Assembly (NCBI GenBank): GCA_017458125.1
Contig: JAFTGB010000019.1
Span: 1 to 36,571 of the forward strand
Reading direction: 5' to 3'
From: Prevotella sp.
GTDB taxonomy: Bacteria; Bacteroidota; Bacteroidia; Bacteroidales; Bacteroidaceae
Length of the DNA: 36,571 bases
In this document: in pieces, positions 840 through 36,560 of the stretch
Position numbering within the stretch: position 1 is the first letter of the stretch
How the letters are laid out: every line of letters begins with the position of its first letter
Translations under genes and position numbers: made by a program
The notes under the pieces: model-generated
The model's input: the letters and a program-made list of their open reading frames with translations, nothing else
What the model was told of the DNA's origin: nothing
Databases searched by the model: none

Positions 840-2834
840 ATGAAATTCTGGAAGAAAAAAGACAAGGGACCTTATCCTCGGTCGTTTGCGCGGCGGCTGA
901 CGCTGCGCATCATGCTGACGCTGTTCTGCGTCATGTCCATCGTGTCGGTCATCATCTTTGTCATAGCCTGGCTTACCGTCTACGCCCAGGCCTACCTGCT
1001 GAGCGACCGCGTGTTGCAGAGCCGTTGCATGCAGATAGAGCAGACACTCACGGAGGTCTATGTGGCCTCGGTCAACACGGTGCCCGACATCGAGAACAGC
1101 CTGTCGCGCCCCGACCGCATGGCCGGCATCATGAAGCGCATAGTGGAGCTGAACCCCGACGTCCGCAGCTGCGGCATCAGCTTCCGCGAGAACTACTATC
1201 CGCAGAAGGGACGGCTGTACTGTCCGTACGCCCAGCGTGGCGACGACGACAGCACCGTTATCATGAAGACGCTGGGCCAGGGCGACAAGGACTACCTGAA
1301 GGCAGAGTGGTTTACCCAGGCCTTGAAGGCCAAGGAGGGCTACTGGTGCAAGCCGTTCTTCAGCGGCAAAGGCGGCAAGACGCCACAGGTGGCCTACCTG
1401 CTGCCCATCCGCGACGAGCGCGACAGCACCGTGGCCGTGCTGGGTGTCGACGTGGCGCTGGACAAGCTGTTCGCCCCCTTGGCGCGACAGAGTGACGCGA
1501 GCGACTTCGTCGACGGCAAGTGGTCGGCCGAGGACGCGATGTATTTCTTTGCCATCGACTCGGTCGGTACCTACCTGAGACACCCCGACAGCGTGCGCGT
1601 AGTGAAGAGCAACTTCTTAGACCTCGTCAAGCGCTCCTCAGTCCCGCAGGACGACGAGTTAGGACGTCTCATGACCAGCGGCAAGAAGGGGCACATGGTC
1701 AGTGACGACGACGATAACGATCTTGTGCTGGAGGGCGAGGAGGTGTTCGTCAGCTACCAGCCCCTGCAGCACACGCCGTGGTCGGTGGCCTTGGTGGTGC
1801 CCGTCTTCTTCATCGACCTGATAGGCTACCTGATGGGCGGTCTGATGCTGCTGTTCATCATCTCGGGCATACTCGTCGTCTTCTTTGCCGGGCGGCGCGG
1901 CATCAAAAAAGCTTCGCAGCCGTTGCGCCAGCTGGCCCAGTCGGCCGACGAGGTGGCCAAGGGAAACTTCAGTGCCCCGCTGCCTGAGATTACAACCCGC
2001 GACGAGATACACCAGCTGCGCGACTCGTTCGAGAACATGCAGCAGTCGCTGACCACATACGTCGCCGAGCTGCGCGACGCCACCGCCCAGAAGGCTGCCA
2101 TAGAGAGCGAGCTGAAGGTGGCCCACGACATCCAGATGTCGATGCTGCCCAAGACGTTCCCGCCTTTCCCCGAGCGTAGTGATGTCGACGTCTACGGCTC
2201 GCTGACCCCCGCCAAGGGAGTCGGCGGCGACCTGTTCGACTTCTTTATCCGCGACGAGAAGCTCGTCTTCTGCATTGGCGACGTCAGCGGCAAGGGCGTG
2301 CCGGCATCGTTATACATGGCCGTCACGCGCTCGCTGTTCCGCAATGTGGGCACGCATGAGACGGAGCCCGACCACATTGTGGCGGCACTGAACAAAGCGC
2401 AGTCGGAGGGCAACGACACCAACATGTTCGTCACCATCTTCGTCGGTGTGCTCGACCTGGCAACGGGTATGCTGCACTATTGCAATGCCGGCCACGACGC
2501 TCCGCTGCTCATAGGGCGCGACGTGGGTGCGCTGCCCTGCGACCCCAACCTGCCCATCGGCGTCATCAGCGACTTCAAGTTCACGAAACAGGAGATTGCG
2601 ATAGACCGCGGCACCACCATCTTCCTCTTCACCGACGGACTGAACGAGGCCGAGGATGCCACGCACGCCCAGTTCGGCGACATGCGCATCTGGACCGCGG
2701 CCCGTCGACTGATGGCCGAAGGCAACCACCAGCCGCGCAGTGTGGTGGACAGCATGACGGAGGCCGTGCGTGCCTTCGTCGGCGATGCCGAGCAGAGCGA
2801 CGACCTGACAATGCTGGCGATTCAGTTGAATTGA
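840..2834 (+). CDS. Membrane-bound PP2C/SpoIIE-type serine phosphatase with Cache-like sensor and HAMP
   Basis: The 664-residue protein from ATG 840 (an in-frame TTG at 828 is less likely) has TM1 at about residues 23-47. A periplasmic region of about 270 residues follows, with a Cache-like pattern (GYWCKPFFSG, then LLPIRDERDSTVAVLGVDV). TM2 lies at about 322-350, followed by a HAMP and coiled-coil region at about 351-430. The SpoIIE/RsbU-like PP2C domain spans about 430-664. Metal-site motifs are visible: GGDLFDFF, GDVSGKG, NAGHDAPLL, TDGLNEAED and DDLTMLAIQL. It should sense a periplasmic ligand and dephosphorylate a Ser/Thr-phosphorylated partner, probably an anti-sigma-factor antagonist; no such partner is encoded nearby. 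No promoter box is seen just upstream, so it may rely on the antitoxin promoter. Confidence 0.9.
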   Translation: MKFWKKKDKGPYPRSFARRLTLRIMLTLFCVMSIVSVIIFVIAWLTVYAQAYLLSDRVLQSRCMQIEQTLTEVYVASVNTVPDIENSLSRPDRMAGIMKRIVELNPDVRSCGISFRENYYPQKGRLYCPYAQRGDDDSTVIMKTLGQGDKDYLKAEWFTQALKAKEGYWCKPFFSGKGGKTPQVAYLLPIRDERDSTVAVLGVDVALDKLFAPLARQSDASDFVDGKWSAEDAMYFFAIDSVGTYLRHPDSVRVVKSNFLDLVKRSSVPQDDELGRLMTSGKKGHMVSDDDDNDLVLEGEEVFVSYQPLQHTPWSVALVVPVFFIDLIGYLMGGLMLLFIISGILVVFFAGRRGIKKASQPLRQLAQSADEVAKGNFSAPLPEITTRDEIHQLRDSFENMQQSLTTYVAELRDATAQKAAIESELKVAHDIQMSMLPKTFPPFPERSDVDVYGSLTPAKGVGGDLFDFFIRDEKLVFCIGDVSGKGVPASLYMAVTRSLFRNVGTHETEPDHIVAALNKAQSEGNDTNMFVTIFVGVLDLATGMLHYCNAGHDAPLLIGRDVGALPCDPNLPIGVISDFKFTKQEIAIDRGTTIFLFTDGLNEAEDATHAQFGDMRIWTAARRLMAEGNHQPRSVVDSMTEAVRAFVGDAEQSDDLTMLAIQLN

Positions 2835-2933
2835 TAATTGATAATTGACAATTGACAATTATGATTTCTCTTGCTTCTTGCCACTTGCTTCTTGCTTTCA
2901 ATAAATCGAAAATCGTAAATCGAAAATAAACCA
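2835..2933. repeat. Three short-repeat families concatenated in one gap
   Basis: The 99-bp gap is almost entirely short direct repeats. AATTGATAATTGACAATTG units (about 2832-2862) are followed by TTGCTTCTTGCCACTTGCTT units (about 2870-2900) and then AAATCGAAAATCGTAAATCG units (about 2902-2928). Each family recurs elsewhere in the window. The GTG start of the next gene follows directly. Confidence 0.8.
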
Positions 2934-4298
2934 GTGGAAACCATCGTTGAGTTTTTCGGTACGCTGAGTGCCGTGCTGTGGGACTGGCCCATGATAGTGC
3001 TGCTGTTGGGGACACACGTGTTCCTGACCCTGCGGCTGCGCGTGCCGCAGCGCAAGCTGCTGACGGGCATCCGCCTGTCGGTGACGAAGGACACTGGCGG
3101 CGCGGGTGAGGTCAGCCAGTTTGGGGCGTTGGCCACGGCGCTTGCCGCCACCATCGGTACGGGCAACATTGTGGGCGTGGCCACCGCCGTGGCCTTGGGC
3201 GGTCCGGGAGCTGTGCTGTGGTGCTGGCTGACCGGCATCTTTGGCATGGCCACCAAGTATGCTGAGGCCCTGCTGGCCGTCAAGTACCGCGTGCGCGCCA
3301 AGGACGGCCGCACTTACGGCGGTCCGATGTACGCCTTGGAGCGCGGCTTGGGCATGAAGTGGTTAGCCGTGCTCTTCGCCGTCTTCACCGCCTTGACATC
3401 GTTCGGCATAGGATGTACGGTACAGGCCAACTCCATCGCCCTGCTGGCCCACGAGACCTTCGGCGTGCCGACGTGGGTGATGGGTATCGTCATCTGCGTC
3501 TTAACGGCATGCGTCATCCTGGGCGGCGTGAAATCCATCGCACGCGTGTGTACCGTATTAGTACCTTTCATGGCCTTGCTCTATATCGCGGGCTGCATCA
3601 TCCTCCTTTGTATGAATAGTGCTTACGTGTGGCCCGCCATACAGCTCATCGTCCATGCCGCCTTCAACCCCGAGGCGGCGGGCGGCGGTTTCGTAGGAGC
3701 CACGGTGATGATGGCGGCGCGCTACGGCATAGCCCGCGGACTGTTCTCCAACGAGAGCGGCATGGGGTCGGCACCCATCGTGGCCGCCGCAGCGCAGACG
3801 CGCAACCCCGTGCGCCAGGCACTGGTCAGCAGCACGGGCACGTTCTGGGACACGGTGGTTATCTGCGCGCTGACCGGCATCGTACTGGTGTCGAGCATCC
3901 TGGCCTATCCCGACATCTCGTATGCCGACGGAGCCGCGCTGACCCAGGTGGCCTTCTCGAAGATACCCTACATCGGGGCACCGCTGCTCACCTTCGGCAT
4001 CCTCACCTTCGCCTTCAGCACCATCCTTGGCTGGAGCTACTACGGCGAGAGTGCCGTCAACTACATTGAGCACCGCAAGTCGAACCGCTTCTACCGCATA
4101 CTCTACATCACTTTCCTCTTTTTCGGCAGCATCATCAGCTTGGACATCGTCTGGAACATTGCCGACTGCATGAACGCCCTGATGGCCATTCCCAACTTAG
4201 TGGCACTGCTGTTGCTGAGCAAGGTGGCCGCTGCGGAGACCGACAAGTACCTGTGGGGCGGACGCTTAGACGAGAGCGACAGCGACGGGCAGACGTAG
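2934..4298 (+). CDS. Alanine/glycine:cation (Na+) symporter, AGCS family
   Basis: The 454-residue polytopic inner-membrane protein should import alanine or glycine with Na+ (or H+). AGCS hallmarks include the early ALAATIGTGNIVGVATA segment, GGPGAVLWCWLTGIFGMATKYAEA and the NESGMGSAPI motif. Length is normal for the family, and around ten hydrophobic segments are visible. The start is taken as GTG 2934 because the N-terminus METIVEFFGTLSAVLW before the first helix fits the family and no upstream ATG is in frame; the first internal ATG would remove part of that helix. It lies about 100 bp after the phosphatase gene, across a repeat tract, and could be cotranscribed. Substrate specificity cannot be read from the sequence. 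Confidence 0.92.
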   Translation: METIVEFFGTLSAVLWDWPMIVLLLGTHVFLTLRLRVPQRKLLTGIRLSVTKDTGGAGEVSQFGALATALAATIGTGNIVGVATAVALGGPGAVLWCWLTGIFGMATKYAEALLAVKYRVRAKDGRTYGGPMYALERGLGMKWLAVLFAVFTALTSFGIGCTVQANSIALLAHETFGVPTWVMGIVICVLTACVILGGVKSIARVCTVLVPFMALLYIAGCIILLCMNSAYVWPAIQLIVHAAFNPEAAGGGFVGATVMMAARYGIARGLFSNESGMGSAPIVAAAAQTRNPVRQALVSSTGTFWDTVVICALTGIVLVSSILAYPDISYADGAALTQVAFSKIPYIGAPLLTFGILTFAFSTILGWSYYGESAVNYIEHRKSNRFYRILYITFLFFGSIISLDIVWNIADCMNALMAIPNLVALLLLSKVAAAETDKYLWGGRLDESDSDGQT

Positions 4299-6776: not shown

Positions 6777-6889
6777 AAGAGGCAAGAAGCAAGAGGCAAG
6801 AAGCAAGAGATATGTTGGTAAACAAGGAAAGAAATTATGGAAGCAGAAGAAGTAATCTCTTGCTTCTTGCTTCTTGTCTCTTGCCTCTT
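6777..6889. repeat. Large inverted repeat between ketosynthase and ACP genes
   Basis: The left arm 6777-6811 and right arm 6855-6889, each 35 nt, pair at 32 of 35 positions around a 43-nt loop. Both arms are built from the GGCAAGAAGCAAGA unit, seen as TTCTTGC repeats elsewhere. The structure lies in the only long gap (149 bp) of the operon, so in the transcript it would form a long hairpin between the ketosynthase and ACP coding regions. Confidence 0.85.
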
Positions 6890-16522: not shown

Positions 16523-16556
16523 AATTATAAATAGTAAATAGTAAATTGTAAATAAA
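16523..16556 (+). repeat. AGTAAAT-type short repeat before greA
   Basis: Units of TAAATAGTAAATAGTAAATT type fill the last 34 nt of the greA 5' leader, up to the start codon. The same family appears in-frame within the glycosidase gene at 27993-28028. Confidence 0.75.
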
Positions 16557-22803: not shown

Positions 22804-22855
22804 TTGTGCTTCGCAAATGAGAAATGAGGAATGAGTAATGAGAAATGTTGTTCCC
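22804..22855. repeat. CTCATTT-type repeat tract with TTC-centred palindrome
   Basis: TGC-TTC-GCA (about 22807-22815) abuts a run of AATGAGAAATGAGGAATGAG-type units (about 22815-22846). It lies between the tRNA-Glu 5' end and its promoter, so it would be part of the tRNA precursor. Confidence 0.6.
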
Positions 22856-27240: not shown

Positions 27241-27337
27241 CTGTATTTTCGATTTACGAATTTTCGATTTTCGATTTGTTGGAAGCAAGAGTAATCATAT
27301 CTCTCAGTTCTCACCTCTCAGTTCTCACCTCTCAACT
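27241..27337. repeat. Two short-repeat families in the GH127 5' leader
   Basis: ATTTTCGATTTACGAATTTT-type units (about 27244-27280) and TCTCACCTCTCAGTTCTCAC-type units (about 27298-27336) fill the predicted GH127 leader. Both families also occur inside the neighbouring glycosidase gene. Confidence 0.8.
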
Positions 27338-27342
27338 CGCCT

Positions 27343-27408: not shown

Positions 27409-30400
27409 ATGAAGCAACGTTTTTGTATCTTTTTCCTCCTGCTCTTGACCACGCTGACGGTCACGGCACAACAAAAAGTGTTTATCTCCACCTCGTTCCA
27501 CGAACCCGCTACCGACGGTTTGCGCTTCATCTACAGCTACGACGGATGGACGTGGCAGCAGGTCGACGGCGTATGGCTGCGTCCCGAGGTGGGACGGCAG
27601 CGCGTCATGCGCGACCCCAGCATCGTGCGCACACCCGACGGCACCTTCCACTTAGTGTGGACCAGCTCGTGGCGCGGCGACCGCGGCTTCGGCTATGCGT
27701 CAAGCAAAGACCTCGTCCACTGGAGCGAGCAGCGCTTCATCGAAGTCATGCCCGACACGTCGACGGTCAACGTATGGGCTCCCGAACTCTTCTGGGACTC
27801 CGACCGCCGTCAGGTTGTCATCATGTGGGCGTCGTGCATCCCCGGCCGCTTCCCTGACGGACAGGAAGAGCATAAGAACAACCACCGCCTCTACTACACC
27901 ACCACGCGCGACTTCCGCACCTTCGCCCCCACGCGACTGATGATAGAACCCGGCTTCTCCTGCATCGACGCCACCATTGTCGACACAAAAACAATAGTAA
28001 ATAGTAAATCGTCAAATAGTAAATATAGATATGTGATGGTGCTCAAAGACAACACGCGCCCGGAGCGCAACATCAAGGTGTCTTTCGCCTCGTCGCCCTA
28101 CGGTCCGTGGTCAAAACCCTCTGAACCCTTCACCGGTCACATGATGGAAGGCCCCACCGTGCTGTGTCTGAATAACGATAACGAAAACGAAAACGTAAAA
28201 CGAAAATCGAAAATCGAAAATGGTAAATCGAAAATCGAAAATCGAAAATATCTCATCTACTACGACCGCTATGAGCTGAAAGACTTTGGTGCTCACCTCA
28301 CCACCGACTTTGTCAACTTCGAGGATGTTTCCGACAAGGTCACCGTCCCTGCACTCCACAAGCACGGCACCATCTTCGAGGCCGACGAGCATATCCTGCA
28401 AGGACTGCTCCATGCACGCAAGGTGCACTATAGCGGTACTACCCTCAGCAACCCCAACCGCCACGACGGCGCCCTGTCGCCCGTCGTCGGCGTGCATAAC
28501 ATCCAGCTGCTGCGTGCCAACCGCGAGGCACCTTCTGCCGACAATGGCGACGGCTGGACCTACAACCACCAACCCATGATGGCCTACTGGCACGACCGCT
28601 TCTATCTGCACTACCTCAGCGACCCCAAGGACGAGCATGTGCCGCCTTCGCGCACCATGCTCCAAACCTCGTCCGACGGCTACACGTGGAGCCAGCCGCA
28701 AGTGCTGTTCCCTGAAGTGCAGGTGCCTGAAGGCTTCCAGAAACCCGGTCGTCCCGACCGTGCCCACAACCTCATAGCCATCATGCACCAGCGTGTGGGG
28801 TGGTATGTCTCCAAGAGCGGACAACTCTACGCCCTTGGCAACTACGGCGTAGCCTTCGACCGCAAGGACGACCCTAACGACGGCAACGGTCTGGGACGTG
28901 TCATCCGCGAGGTTAAGGCCGACGGCACCTTCGGCCCCATCTATTTCCTCTATCGTAACTCCGGATATTCTAAATATTCTGGTAATTCTACCCCAATCTT
29001 CCCCCTTTACACTAAAGCCGACAAAGCTACGCGCCGCGCCTGTCAGGAACTGCTGGCCAACCCGCGCTACCGCATGCAATGGGTTGAAGAGGCCGACCGC
29101 AACGACCCTCTCATCCCGCTGCATAAGGAGTATAAGGCTTACTGCGACTACACGCTGCCCGACGGCCAGATAGCCGCACTGTGGAAGCATGCCCTCACCT
29201 CCACTTCCGCCGATGGCGGGTTCACGTGGGCACAGCCTGTAGAGCGCGCACGGGGCTTTGTCAACAGCAATGCCAAAATCTGGGGACAGCGACTCTCCGA
29301 CGGCACCTATGCCACCGTCTACAATCCCTCCGAATACCGCTGGCCGTTGGCCATCAGCCTCTCTGCCGACGGCTACGACTACACCACCCTCAACCTCGTT
29401 CAGGGTGAGGTGCCGCCCATGCGTTATGGTGGCAACTACAAAAGCTACGGACCGCAGTATGTGCGCGGCATACAGGAGGGCAACGGCATACCCCGCGACT
29501 CTGACCTGTGGGTGGCCTACTCCATGAACAAGGAAGACATGTGGGTGGCTCATATTCCCGTGCCCGTGCTCACCCGTGCCCATAGCCATGCCGACGGCAC
29601 CGAGTTCCGACAGGCTCCTGACGGTGCTGCCGTCACCAGCCTCGCCCAGCTCGCCACATGGAACATCCATTCACCGCTCTACGCTCCTGTCACCGTTGCT
29701 GACGGCAGTCTCACGCTGTCCGACAGCGACCCCTTCGACTATGCCCGCGTCGAGCGGCTCATTCCTGCTACTACCGAACTGCGTGTCAGCTTCGACGTGC
29801 AAGCGTCCCAAAACGACCACGGCCTGCTGCAGGTTGAATTTCTCGATGCCCACGGCACGGCATGCTCGCGTCTTGAGTTCACTGCCGACGGCGTGCTGCG
29901 CTGCAAGGGTGGTGCCCGCTATGCCACGTTAAGCAAGTATGAGCCGCGCCGCACCTATCATGTAGAAGCTGTCCTCAGCGTCAGCCGTCGCATGATAGAG
30001 GTCTTCGTCGATGGTCGCAAGGCAGGCCAGCGCATGTTCTTCGCCCCGGTCAGCGCCATCGAGCGCGTCATGTTCCGCACCGGCTCCGAGCGTCACCATC
30101 CCGATGTCGACACTCCCGCCGACTGGGACGGCACGCTGCCCGACGCCGGCCGTCGTGACCCCGAGGCCCGCTACGCCCTCTCCAATGTCAAAACCCAAGA
30201 TGCATTTCTCACTTCTCATTTCTCATTTCTCATTCCGGAAGAATTCCGGCATTACGTCGACTACTTCAATACCATGGAGCCCGAAGGCATCCGTCAGGCC
30301 ATACCCAACAGCGACGCCTGGCAGTGGATGACAGAGAACATACCACTCTTCGACTGTCCTGACCGCGGCTTCGAAGAACTCTGGTACTTCCGCTGGTGGA

Positions 30401-31692
30401 CGCTGCGCAAACACATCCGCCATACACCAGTGGGCTACGCCATGACCGAGTTCCTCGTGCAGCGCTCATACGCTGACAAGTATAACCTCATCTCCTCCGG
30501 TGTCGGCCATCACATCATGGAAAGCCGCTGGCTGCGCGATACCACTTACCTCGACCAGATTATGAACACCTGGTATCACGGCAACGGAGGAAAGCCCATG
30601 CAGAAAATTGCCAACTACTCCTCATGGATGCCTCACGCCCTATGGCAGCGTTACCTTGTCGACCACCGCACTCAGTGGATTACCGGCATGCTGCCTTCCT
30701 TGGAGTGGGAGTACAACCACTGGGAAACCACGCATACCCGCGAGGGAGGACTCTACTGGCAAGCCGACGTTCAGGACGCCATGGAGGAGACCATCAGCGG
30801 CGGACGTAAGAAGAAGTACCTGCGTCCCTCCATCAACAGCTATATGTATGGCAATGCCATGGCCATTGCCAACATCGCAAGCCTCAGTGGCGACAGCGTC
30901 AAGGCACGGCACTATGCCGACAAGGCCACCACGCTGCGCCGCCTGATGCACCAGAAGCTGTGGAACCCCCGTCACCAGTTCTTCGAGACGCATCGCATCG
31001 ACTCCTCAGCCAACGTGCGCGAAGCCATTGGCTTCCTGCCCTGGTACACCCATGCTGCCTACGACGAGCCGCAGTATGCTGTTGCTTGGCAACAGCTCGG
31101 CGACCCGAAGGGCTTCTGCGCTCCCTATGGCATCACTACTGCTGAGCGTCGCCACCCCCTCTTCCGCACTCACGGCGTAGGTCGCTGCGAGTGGGACGGT
31201 GCCGTGTGGCCTTTCGCTACCAGCCAGACCCTTACTGCCCTTGCCAACTTCATCAATGATTATTCTCACCTCTCACCTCTCACCTCTCAATTTTTCGATG
31301 AAATAGAAAAATACATGCAGTCGCAGCACATGCGTGGGAAACCCTACATCGGCGAATATCTCGACGAGACCACTGGCTACTGGCTCAAGGGCGACCAGGA
31401 GCGTTCGCGCTACTACAACCACTCCACTTTCTGCGACCTCATCATCACCGGTGTCTGCGGCCTCCGTCCCCGTGCCGACAACACCATAGAGGTCAACCCC
31501 CTGTTGCCTCCCGACCGTTGGGCTTCGTTCTGTCTTGACGGCGTGCCTTATCACGGCCATTTCCTCACCATCCTCTGGGACCGTGACGGCTCCCGCTACC
31601 ATGCCGGCTCTGGCTTCCGCCTCTTCCTTGACGGCAAGCTCATAGCACACCGCAAAGACCTCGGGCGGGTTGTGGTGCCTGCTGCTTTGTAG
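27409..31692 (+). CDS. Three-module secreted glycosidase: GH43-like, GH143-like propeller, GH142-like barrel
   Basis: The 1427-residue protein has a signal peptide (to about residue 21). Residues about 22-310 form a GH43-like five-bladed propeller with candidate catalytic Asp69 (MRDPS), Asp187 (CIDATIV) and Glu247 (MMEGPTV). Residues about 320-745 form a second, BNR/sialidase-like propeller (NHQPMMAYWHDRFYLHYLSD, WVEEADRNDPLIPLHKEY, VNSNAKIWGQ). About 745-925 is a concanavalin-like beta region, and about 940-1427 an (alpha/alpha)6 barrel (SSWMPHALWQRY, RCEWDGAVWPFATSQT). The last three resemble BT1020 of Bacteroides, whose GH143 and GH142 domains act on DHA and beta-L-Araf in RG-II. The extra GH43-like module is unusual. 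Five AT-rich repeat tracts lie in frame at loop positions. Confidence 0.8.
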   Translation: MKQRFCIFFLLLLTTLTVTAQQKVFISTSFHEPATDGLRFIYSYDGWTWQQVDGVWLRPEVGRQRVMRDPSIVRTPDGTFHLVWTSSWRGDRGFGYASSKDLVHWSEQRFIEVMPDTSTVNVWAPELFWDSDRRQVVIMWASCIPGRFPDGQEEHKNNHRLYYTTTRDFRTFAPTRLMIEPGFSCIDATIVDTKTIVNSKSSNSKYRYVMVLKDNTRPERNIKVSFASSPYGPWSKPSEPFTGHMMEGPTVLCLNNDNENENVKRKSKIENGKSKIENRKYLIYYDRYELKDFGAHLTTDFVNFEDVSDKVTVPALHKHGTIFEADEHILQGLLHARKVHYSGTTLSNPNRHDGALSPVVGVHNIQLLRANREAPSADNGDGWTYNHQPMMAYWHDRFYLHYLSDPKDEHVPPSRTMLQTSSDGYTWSQPQVLFPEVQVPEGFQKPGRPDRAHNLIAIMHQRVGWYVSKSGQLYALGNYGVAFDRKDDPNDGNGLGRVIREVKADGTFGPIYFLYRNSGYSKYSGNSTPIFPLYTKADKATRRACQELLANPRYRMQWVEEADRNDPLIPLHKEYKAYCDYTLPDGQIAALWKHALTSTSADGGFTWAQPVERARGFVNSNAKIWGQRLSDGTYATVYNPSEYRWPLAISLSADGYDYTTLNLVQGEVPPMRYGGNYKSYGPQYVRGIQEGNGIPRDSDLWVAYSMNKEDMWVAHIPVPVLTRAHSHADGTEFRQAPDGAAVTSLAQLATWNIHSPLYAPVTVADGSLTLSDSDPFDYARVERLIPATTELRVSFDVQASQNDHGLLQVEFLDAHGTACSRLEFTADGVLRCKGGARYATLSKYEPRRTYHVEAVLSVSRRMIEVFVDGRKAGQRMFFAPVSAIERVMFRTGSERHHPDVDTPADWDGTLPDAGRRDPEARYALSNVKTQDAFLTSHFSFLIPEEFRHYVDYFNTMEPEGIRQAIPNSDAWQWMTENIPLFDCPDRGFEELWYFRWWTLRKHIRHTPVGYAMTEFLVQRSYADKYNLISSGVGHHIMESRWLRDTTYLDQIMNTWYHGNGGKPMQKIANYSSWMPHALWQRYLVDHRTQWITGMLPSLEWEYNHWETTHTREGGLYWQADVQDAMEETISGGRKKKYLRPSINSYMYGNAMAIANIASLSGDSVKARHYADKATTLRRLMHQKLWNPRHQFFETHRIDSSANVREAIGFLPWYTHAAYDEPQYAVAWQQLGDPKGFCAPYGITTAERRHPLFRTHGVGRCEWDGAVWPFATSQTLTALANFINDYSHLSPLTSQFFDEIEKYMQSQHMRGKPYIGEYLDETTGYWLKGDQERSRYYNHSTFCDLIITGVCGLRPRADNTIEVNPLLPPDRWASFCLDGVPYHGHFLTILWDRDGSRYHAGSGFRLFLDGKLIAHRKDLGRVVVPAAL
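27993..28028 (+). repeat. In-frame AGTAAAT repeat inside the GH43-like module
   Basis: AATAGTAAATAGTAAATCG-type units encode about residues 195-206 (IVNSKSSNSKY), between the CIDATIV strand and the YRYVMVLKD strand, a turn in GH43 propellers. The family matches the tract before greA. Confidence 0.75.
28171..28250 (+). repeat. In-frame TCGAAAA repeat inside the GH43-like module
   Basis: About 80 nt of AACGAAAACGAAAAC and ATCGAAAATCGAAAA units encode residues about 255-281, rich in Lys, Asn, Glu and Ile (KRKSKIENGKSKIENRK). The insertion splits the family-like EGPTVLCLN and YLIYYDRYE strands at a hairpin turn next to candidate acid Glu247. Confidence 0.85.
28962..28991 (+). repeat. In-frame ATTCTAA-type repeat in the second propeller
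   Basis: ATATTCTAAATATTCTGGTA units encode NSGYSKYSGNST near residues 519-530, in a loop between IYFLYR and FPLYTKADK. Confidence 0.6.
30204..30235 (+). repeat. In-frame CTCATTT repeat at the module junction
   Basis: ATTTCTCACTTCTCATTTCT units encode AFLTSHFSFLIP (about 932-943), between the concanavalin-like region and the (alpha/alpha)6 barrel. The same family occupies the gap between the two chromate transporter genes. Confidence 0.8.
31263..31295 (+). repeat. In-frame CACCTCT repeat in the (alpha/alpha)6 barrel
   Basis: TCTCACCTCTCACCTCTCAC units encode YSHLSPLTSQF (about 1286-1296), between helices ALANFIND and FDEIEKYMQ. The same family lies in the GH127 leader at about 27298-27336. 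Confidence 0.8.
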
Positions 31693-35663: not shown

Positions 35664-36017
35664 GACCTTTGACGATTTTACTATTTGACTATTTCACTAT
35701 TTGACTATTTCGCGATTTATTTACGATTTACGGATTTTCGATTTTCGATTTAATACCTTATCCGCTTCGTCATTTCTTCATTTTTCATTTACATTTCTCT
35801 TATTGCGATTTATTTACGATTTACGGATTTTCGATTTTCGATTTAATACTTTATCCGCTTCTTCATTTCTTCATTTTTCATTTACATTTCTCATTATTGC
35901 GATTTATTTACGATTTACGGATTTTCGATTTAATACCTTATCCGCTTCGTCATTTCTTCATTTTTCATTTACATTTCTCATTACTCATTTCTCATTACTC
36001 ATTTGGAACGAAGTTCC
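35664..36017. repeat. Composite repeat tract with a 93-nt unit in tandem
   Basis: The 354-bp gap between the two transporter genes is wholly repetitive. TTTGACTATTTCACTATTTG-type units occur at about 35674-35711. A unit of about 93 nt then repeats three times: 35712-35804, 35805-35898 and 35899 to about 35983. Each copy combines ATTTACGATTTACGGATTTT, TATCCGCTTC and CATTTCTTCATTTTTCATTT blocks; the third lacks one 7-nt TTTTCGA step. CTCATTT units and a GGAAC-GAA-GTTCC palindrome (about 36003-36015) end the tract. No promoter or credible gene is seen. Confidence 0.9.
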
Positions 36018-36560
36018 TCATTTCTCATTTCTCATTTTGGAAACCAAAACTCCTCCAAGTCCGGCGGCAATGATAATCCAGATGGGACTGACGCCGAGGA
36101 GCCAGATGAGCAGTGCCGACACAATGGGAATCCAGAGCGTGTAGCGGTTCAGCCGTGCCTGGCGGGCTAAGTTGAACGTGGGAACGGCAATCAGGGCCAC
36201 CACGGCAGGGCGTATGCCACGGAAGAGGGCGGCCACGATGCGGTTGTCCTCAAATTGGTGGAAAAACATGGCAATGGCCAGAATGATGAGAAACGAGGGT
36301 AGGGCAGTGCCCAGGGCACACATCATGGCTCCGCGTACCTTATTTAATTTATAGCCCACGAAGATGCTGATGTTAATGGCAAAGACCCCCGGACAGCTCT
36401 GCGCGATGGCAATGAGGTCGAGCATCTCTTCCTTACCAATCCAGCGGTGTCGGTTCACCACCTCTTCCTCGATAATCGGTATCATGGCATATCCACCCCC
36501 GAGGGTGAACATGCCAATCTTGAAGAACGTGCGGAACGACTCCCAGTAGAGATTACTCAT
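36018..36560 (-). CDS. Short chromate-type transporter subunit, first of pair
   Basis: The 180-residue CHR-domain membrane protein starts MSNLYWESFRTFFKIGMFTLGGGYAMIPII and has IAIAQSCPGVFAINISIFVGYKL, the counterpart of the PGP motif region in its partner. About five or six hydrophobic segments are visible. It is the promoter-proximal member of the pair; its own promoter lies beyond the right edge. The last six codons (KMRNEK) and the stop come from the CTCATTT repeat tract, so the C-terminus appears to have been set by the repeat. Confidence 0.85.
   Translation of the reverse strand: MSNLYWESFRTFFKIGMFTLGGGYAMIPIIEEEVVNRHRWIGKEEMLDLIAIAQSCPGVFAINISIFVGYKLNKVRGAMMCALGTALPSFLIILAIAMFFHQFEDNRIVAALFRGIRPAVVALIAVPTFNLARQARLNRYTLWIPIVSALLIWLLGVSPIWIIIAAGLGGVLVSKMRNEK

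Follow-up and report, generated by a model that had tools for sequence, protein, structure and literature searches.

Seven-base repeat arrays in frame inside Prevotella genes and their probable relation to intergenic repeat DNA

The STRR sequences of cyanobacteria are heptamer arrays that are largely intergenic and variable between relatives. The GGGAATC and GGGGA(C/T)T heptamers of Xanthomonas and Nostoc are likewise largely intergenic and vary between relatives (PMC4692102). TAACTGA and other heptamer direct repeats are found in Beggiatoaceae, cyanobacteria, and some Bacteroidetes, where they lie in gaps between genes, often before start codons, and in some ORFs, and their author states that insertions seem to be successful mostly at the protein periphery (PMC4679880). 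Furthermore, the Rickettsia palindromic elements are dispersed repeats that lie in frame in many unrelated metabolic and housekeeping genes, in unstructured protein segments (PMC10969869; PMC2996958). This report concerns heptamer arrays in frame inside Prevotella genes and starts from a 36,571-base stretch of DNA of a Prevotella sp. (the window), of which an initial annotation had held that no formal description of such behavior was known. Heptamers in ORFs and in-frame palindromes of Rickettsia have been described (PMC4679880; PMC10969869), whereas neither the combination nor any paper on heptamer arrays in Prevotella genes was found in the open-licence literature. The occurrence of such arrays in Prevotella genes is well supported as an observation, and the route of spread is unproven.

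The gene at the center of this report encodes a glycosidase in which an N-terminal domain (residues 1-335, with BT_3657-like_N at 25-120) is joined to a BT_1020-like part comprising a beta-propeller, a sialidase-like CBM, and an MGH1-like GH (Pfam names), and residues 329-1426 match PDB 5mqr/5mqs, the solved BT_1020 enzyme. The N-terminal domain and the BT_1020-like part are fused in the window (27409-28425) and are separate ORFs in L017, L032, L033, and L034. The gene and its five tracts are as follows.

27409..31692, forward strand: glycosidase ORF of 1427 aa, N-terminal domain fused to a BT_1020-like enzyme.
27993..28025, forward strand: T1, AGTAAAT array with one 8-base unit, CGTCAAAT; residues 195-207; TRF period 7.
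28174..28249, forward strand: T2, CGAAAAT array; residues 255-281; TRF period 7.
28962..28991, forward strand: T3, variable loop without heptamers; TRF lists nothing; 9-base CTAG- or GCTAATAAG-type repeats in orthologues.
30204..30235, forward strand: T4, CTCATTT array between the CBM and the GH domain; TRF period 7 at 30203-30234; apparent equal-length replacement.
31263..31289, forward strand: T5, TCTCACC array in a variable GH-domain stretch; TRF period 7 at 31264-31289; apparent equal-length replacement.

All five stretches that had been claimed as in-frame repeat tracts are present, four of them as heptamer arrays; T3 was rejected as a member of the heptamer phenomenon in this gene because it is not heptameric and the loops of orthologues contain codon-phased nine-base repeats. 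As a separate observation, the T3 loop is expanded by such codon-phased repeats (NCTAGNNNN, GCTAATAAG) in L104-L183, the longest T3 tract seen is that of L134, and L164 has an array resembling the T3 repeats, TCTAGAAAG, outside the main ORF. A predicted model (residues 21-340, 34 sequences, mean pLDDT 78) has T1 flanked by strands 167-177 and 185-193 and T2 by strands 225-234 and 260-267 (model numbering), the core of each having a pLDDT below 50. The T1 site is thus a predicted beta-hairpin loop, and T2 is predicted to lie between two strands after the EGP motif (Glu247). T3 adjoins gaps in the alignment to 5mqr, and T4 and T5 align to 5mqr gap-free. The earlier placement of all tracts in loops or module junctions accordingly holds for T1 and T2 in the predicted model, whereas T3, together with the GuaA sites described below, lies only beside gaps in structure alignments, so that a loop position is presumptive beyond T1 and T2.

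Further arrays lie between genes or at gene edges of the window; those given without a strand are unstranded.

2829..2927: gap or edge arrays AATTGAC, CTTGCTT, and AAATCGA/T, preceding the next gene.
6777..6889: inverted heptamer-array pair, AAGAAGC ... CTTCTTG.
16528..16554, forward strand: intergenic AGTAAAT array of the T1 family, directly 5' of a start codon.
22815..22847: AAATGAG array, the T4 family on the other strand, in a gap according to the gene calls used here (a longer ORF using an upstream start would overlap it).
27245..27338: gap arrays of the T2 family (ATTTTCG/ATTTACG) and of the T5 family (CTCTCAGTTCTCAC), upstream of the glycosidase gene.
35668..36037: compound gap array of TTTGACTA, ATTTTCG, and CATTTCT/CTCATTT units, touching a gene edge at 36018.

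In agreement with the initial annotation, four of the five tracts use families that recur elsewhere in the window, between genes or at their edges: T1 as AGTAAAT (16528), T2 as CGAAAAT (2903, 27245, 35733), T4 as CTCATTT (35972, 36017), and T5 as CTCTCAC/CTCAGTT (27301). At 35712-35983 the heptamer units also form a 93-base higher-order tandem repeat of about three copies. The tetramers CTAG (15 vs 18.6 in shuffles) and CCGG (31 vs 31.8) show no excess in the window.

The arrays resemble the TAACTGA repeats in lying in gaps, directly upstream of starts, and in some cases inside ORFs, and they agree with simple sequence repeats of the heptamer class in having tandem seven-base units above chance. 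A TAACTGA dimer has 0 matches in the source genome, and, unlike the TAACTGA repeats, the arrays belong to many unit families, occupy internal places of conserved enzymes, and correspond to empty or differently filled sites in orthologues. They also differ from the GGGAATC and GGGGA(C/T)T heptamers and from STRR in that they are not G-rich and lie in frame within genes as well. With the Rickettsia palindromic elements, which have similar coding palindromes in Wolbachia, they share in-frame insertion in unrelated conserved genes; however, those elements are palindromes of about 150 bp, whereas T1-T5 are 26-76 nt long without a significant fold (z 0.17, -0.66, -0.60, n/a, n/a), T1, T2, T4, and T5 consist of seven-base units of several families, and the host belongs to the rumen Bacteroidota.

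The extent of the phenomenon was examined in 20 stretches of the source genome (400,000 of 3,372,008 bases) taken at fixed places on eight contigs bearing AGTAAAT matches, which give 436,571 bp together with the window; since the contigs were chosen with such matches, the density of arrays may be overestimated. Gene calling used a simple codon score made for this analysis, and a run was defined as 11 or more matches at a given lag. The window contains 12 runs at lag 7, 8 at lag 14, 2 at lag 15, and none at lags 4-6 and 8-13. Over the 436,571 bases, lag 7 has 56 runs, lag 14 has 36, lag 22 has 33, lags 21 and 8 have 16 each, and lag 15 has 13, with 0 to 9 at each of the other lags among 4-30. 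The 335 called coding sequences of sample and window hold 15 lag-7 runs, four of them in the glycosidase gene, against a mean of 0.03 and a largest value of 1 over 30 codon shuffles, and further 7 runs at lag 14, 3 at lag 22, and none at the eleven further lags tested that are not divisible by 3. Selection acting on a repeated peptide cannot give rise to the lag-7 signal, because seven is not divisible by three. In total, 112 arrays were found, namely 76 intergenic (an upper count for heptamers, because the lag-22 arrays outside genes are partly another palindromic repeat), 18 across a gene edge, and 18 wholly within coding sequences; since coding sequence makes up 83.5% of the sampled DNA, arrays are depleted in genes. 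Among neighboring arrays, 12 of 34 have inverted partners only and 7 of 34 direct partners only, compared with about 8% each for random pairs. The idea of one invaded coding sequence therefore gives way to many: beyond the four in the glycosidase gene, the arrays in coding sequences lie in Mfd (3), RsgA, MnmA, GuaA (2), NspC, a LacZ-type GH2 (3), a GH13-type enzyme, and a GlmM-like enzyme, and one is doubtful. One of the 18, L088:12331, is a 15-base codon-phased repeat and probably not of the heptamer kind.

The reading that we consider probable is that gap arrays are copied into genes illegitimately and that selection keeps the in-frame, stop-free copies in tolerant loops. In these genomes the gaps hold a lexicon of tandem arrays with seven-base units, and pieces of such arrays, about 20-75 bases long, would be copied or recombined elsewhere, genes included, by illegitimate recombination or template switching without target-site duplication. 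Purifying selection would clear most insertions in genes, acting as a filter on frame, stops, and structure, and the survivors would be found in tolerant loops, hairpin turns, and domain junctions, with the loop lengthened or replaced and enzyme function presumably unaffected. The same permissive places are struck more than once, by other families in other species. Once in place, arrays may be shortened or lengthened by slippage, and allele exchange may aid their spread. Because old arrays would decay to ordinary loop sequence, the process would supply new loop residues.

Orthologues of the glycosidase gene were compared between species, with one genome per species, in a set of 43 distinct sequences of at least 66% identity, 38 of them with the N-terminal part (own sequence included). 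The T1 loop has 16 residues, ten more than the common loop of 6 (35 of 37 loops, own included), and is short in 36 of the 37 other orthologues; the sole exception, L112, has a similar flank (VDTK...KYRYVM) without the repeat, so that either the repeat has decayed there or the insert came first. The T2 loop, with 31 residues, is the longest among the 38 measured, against a mode of 8, which is found in 18 of the 37 other orthologues (18 of 38 with our own). Many of the rest have other arrays or decayed ones: by eye, arrays of AGTAAAT type that include an odd unit, CGTCAAAT or TGTCAAAT, occupy T2 in L109, L115, L117, L119, L123, L124, L130, and L179 (CGTCAAAT in L109 and L115), the repeat looks decayed in L112, L126, and L137, and L104 has CTCACCT. 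Encoding of the T1 or T2 residues of this gene by unrelated codons, which would have marked conserved protein sequence, was seen in none of the aligned orthologues. T1 and T2 lengthen their loops, as expected of the insertions originally proposed, whereas 17 residues separate the anchors at both T4 and T5, a length more frequent than any other (in 19 of 33 and 20 of 39 measured loops, counting our own); T4 and T5 would thus be replacements and not added length, an order of events that we infer. Lag-7 arrays lie inside the main ORF in 8 of 80 loci, at T2 (L104, L109, L115), at T1 (L153), at residue 468 (L166, L167, L169), and at residue 693 (L168, L169); a few sites are thus hit repeatedly, by different families.

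It is possible, though doubtful, that ready-made loop alleles instead spread between species by homologous recombination, the original insertions being rare. A VL-type T2 flank occurs in 14 of the 38 orthologues (own included), 13 of them with a repeat or a remnant insert and one, L120, with none, and this allele is scattered on a tree made with the loop columns left out, where it needs 10 changes, 6 of them forced by strongly supported branches. A single shared T2 insertion with plain vertical descent is rejected by these 10 changes; one deep origin of the allele with many losses is possible. However, the codons of the VL flank vary among carriers, different families occupy one site, and in the closest pair, L104 and L136, which differ by 10% of DNA over the gene, the T2 change is limited to the loop and its edge, with the flanks intact. 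By eye, no target-site duplication was seen at T2 in this only near pair. The gain in L104 also favors the active process put forward by the initial annotation, on the basis of a comparison between species. Separately, a change of the T2 flank from TTVKV to TVLKL accompanies the insert in scattered species; it is perhaps structural compensation or allele exchange, and the VL flank common to these inserts hints at a part for allele exchange or at inserts that select their flank.

GuaA and Mfd were compared in the best 30 matches each (own included), of 126 matching genomes out of 150 for GuaA and of 57 out of 60 for Mfd. GuaA of the source genome has two filled sites, and when it is aligned with solved structures, the extra residues at both coincide with gaps or adjoin them. 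The second site is short in 25 of the 29 other orthologues among the best 30 of 126, and the first is variable in length; arrays at the two sites were found in 5 of the 29 others by run scan (L185, L195, L197, L205, L208) and in L213 by eye, and L205 has an identical composite string at both. In 11 genomes that consist of one to four contigs (G045, G117, G016, G024, G122, G132, G010, G061, G084, G137, and G146), inspection of GuaA by eye showed no heptamer array at either site. L256 and L259 have, by eye, long palindrome-like in-frame inserts at both GuaA sites, in frames of 656 and 639 codons, and one portion of the L256 insert, AGAGGGGTTGGGGGTGAGG, was present in 7 of the 9 genomes examined, with 10 copies in L256's own. 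The T5 loop of relatives similarly holds a REP-like palindrome, CCCAGCGG-N5-CCGCTGGG in L115, whose genome has 20 copies at no more than 2 mismatches vs 3 for the control. REP/MITE-type palindromes, which are hairpin elements unlike the tandem heptamers, thus fill the same places in related species. The Mfd insert at L084:10960-11058 is in frame and folds (z -3.2), its two heptamer arms being inverted relative to each other; at this site the arm family varies between species, and by eye both arms seem matched to each other (own, L215, L218, L222). The glycosidase orthologue in L168 also has an in-frame hairpin module (3519-3659) of two inverted heptamer arms, which folds (z -5.4). These Mfd and L168 modules and the GuaA elements of L256 and L259 are nearer in form to the Rickettsia elements. 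In samples of seven other genomes of the genus, lag-7 runs in coding sequences number 2 in G081, 4 in G083, and 1 each in G059 and G117, the last a single contig rated 99% complete with the array in frame in a gene; none were found in the samples of G007, G082, and G019, G082 and G019 having 1 and 2 lag-8 runs instead. Four-fold AAATNGN is patchy: of 151 genomes of the family, 26 have a match, and none of the 9 other genomes of the genus drawn in that set has one.

Ten of the 15 coding-sequence arrays scored share a unit with non-coding arrays of the sample, compared with a mean of 3.0 and a maximum of 8 in 1000 rounds with the unit letters permuted; the other five, T5 included by the strict test, share none, and 3 of the 18 arrays in coding sequences have no seven-base unit by the strict unit test. 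The exact 31-base core of T1 occurs at 15 places in 5 of 100 genomes, against 0 for the reversed control, and three of these fall within open frames longer than 400 codons, namely T1 itself, T2 in the orthologue from G081, and a gene in G071 (L080) whose frame has 410 codons. Nine of the remaining 12 are in arrays with an ATG within 7 bases downstream, three of the nine being overlapping copies in one G051 array; the L075 copy precedes an ATG, and those of L072-L074 are without such an ATG. When non-coding arrays were scored against both neighbors, those within 500 bases of a stretch end being dropped, AAAT-type arrays located no more than 30 bases upstream of a start had the A-rich strand as sense in 14 cases and the opposite in 1. 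CGAAAAT, CTCATTT, and TCTCACC are open in all phases, as worked out from the code, and suited to coding DNA; AGTAAAT includes TAA and TAG and, in the arrays that were read, is held to one frame, giving IVNSKS or close. By eye, the peptide IVN[SG]KSxN[SR]K is common to GuaA (twice), RsgA, MnmA, and T1, and SHLSPLT to T5, L104, and genes of G081, G083, and G117. Each family thus encodes a conserved peptide, as in the Rickettsia elements, here because the heptamer unit dictates it.

Local replication slippage, in which a seed within the gene would grow donor-free by seven-base steps because the polymerase favors seven, is unlikely. Slippage at seven bases is a published guess (PMC4692102), the excess lies mainly at lag 7 and at lags combining 7 with 8, L130 has a duplicated 15-base unit, and the AAAAT present in many empty GuaA G2 sites fits a seed; yet unrelated genes share units, even a 31-mer with an odd 8-base unit, the long composite string of L205 is the same at two GuaA sites, and the odd unit CGTCAAAT in filled sites points to a donor-specific marker. 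Quite improbable, in our judgment, is an unknown dedicated enzyme that writes seven-base units (templated, telomerase-like, or template-switching), seeds genome-wide arrays, and keeps creating loops, the families being species-specific lexicons that turn over jointly in both arms of the hairpin modules. Still less is to be said for directed or selected diversification, in which a dedicated system would write repeats into loops of surface or glycan-active proteins: a few sites are used recurrently and T2 adjoins the EGP motif, but housekeeping enzymes such as GuaA and Mfd are also struck and the majority of arrays lie outside genes, and the purposeful loop diversity once suggested for this gene finds no support beyond the recurrence at a few sites. 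Ordinary conserved or low-complexity protein sequence is hardly credible, since it fits T3, with its codon-phased nine-base repeats in orthologues, whereas a conserved protein repeat is rejected for the arrays by their period of seven, not a multiple of three, and by orthologous sites empty of the residues. An assembly artefact of metagenome bins can be dismissed almost entirely: the source genome is in 86 contigs, but an in-frame gene array occurs in the single-contig G117, the T2 loop of Prevotella sp. tc2-28 (L117; record title not marked as a MAG) is array-derived, and the same sites are filled in independent genomes of other species.

Illegitimate copying from gaps, kept by selection in tolerant loops, would mean that repeat DNA of gaps comes to encode parts of core enzymes in a gut genus, and relatives show empty, filled, and apparently decayed stages of this process. 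Loop inserts in Prevotella enzymes consequently call for caution, as they need not signal function. The finding makes testable both the spread of bacterial heptamer arrays and the evolution of loops in essential enzymes by capture of selfish DNA.
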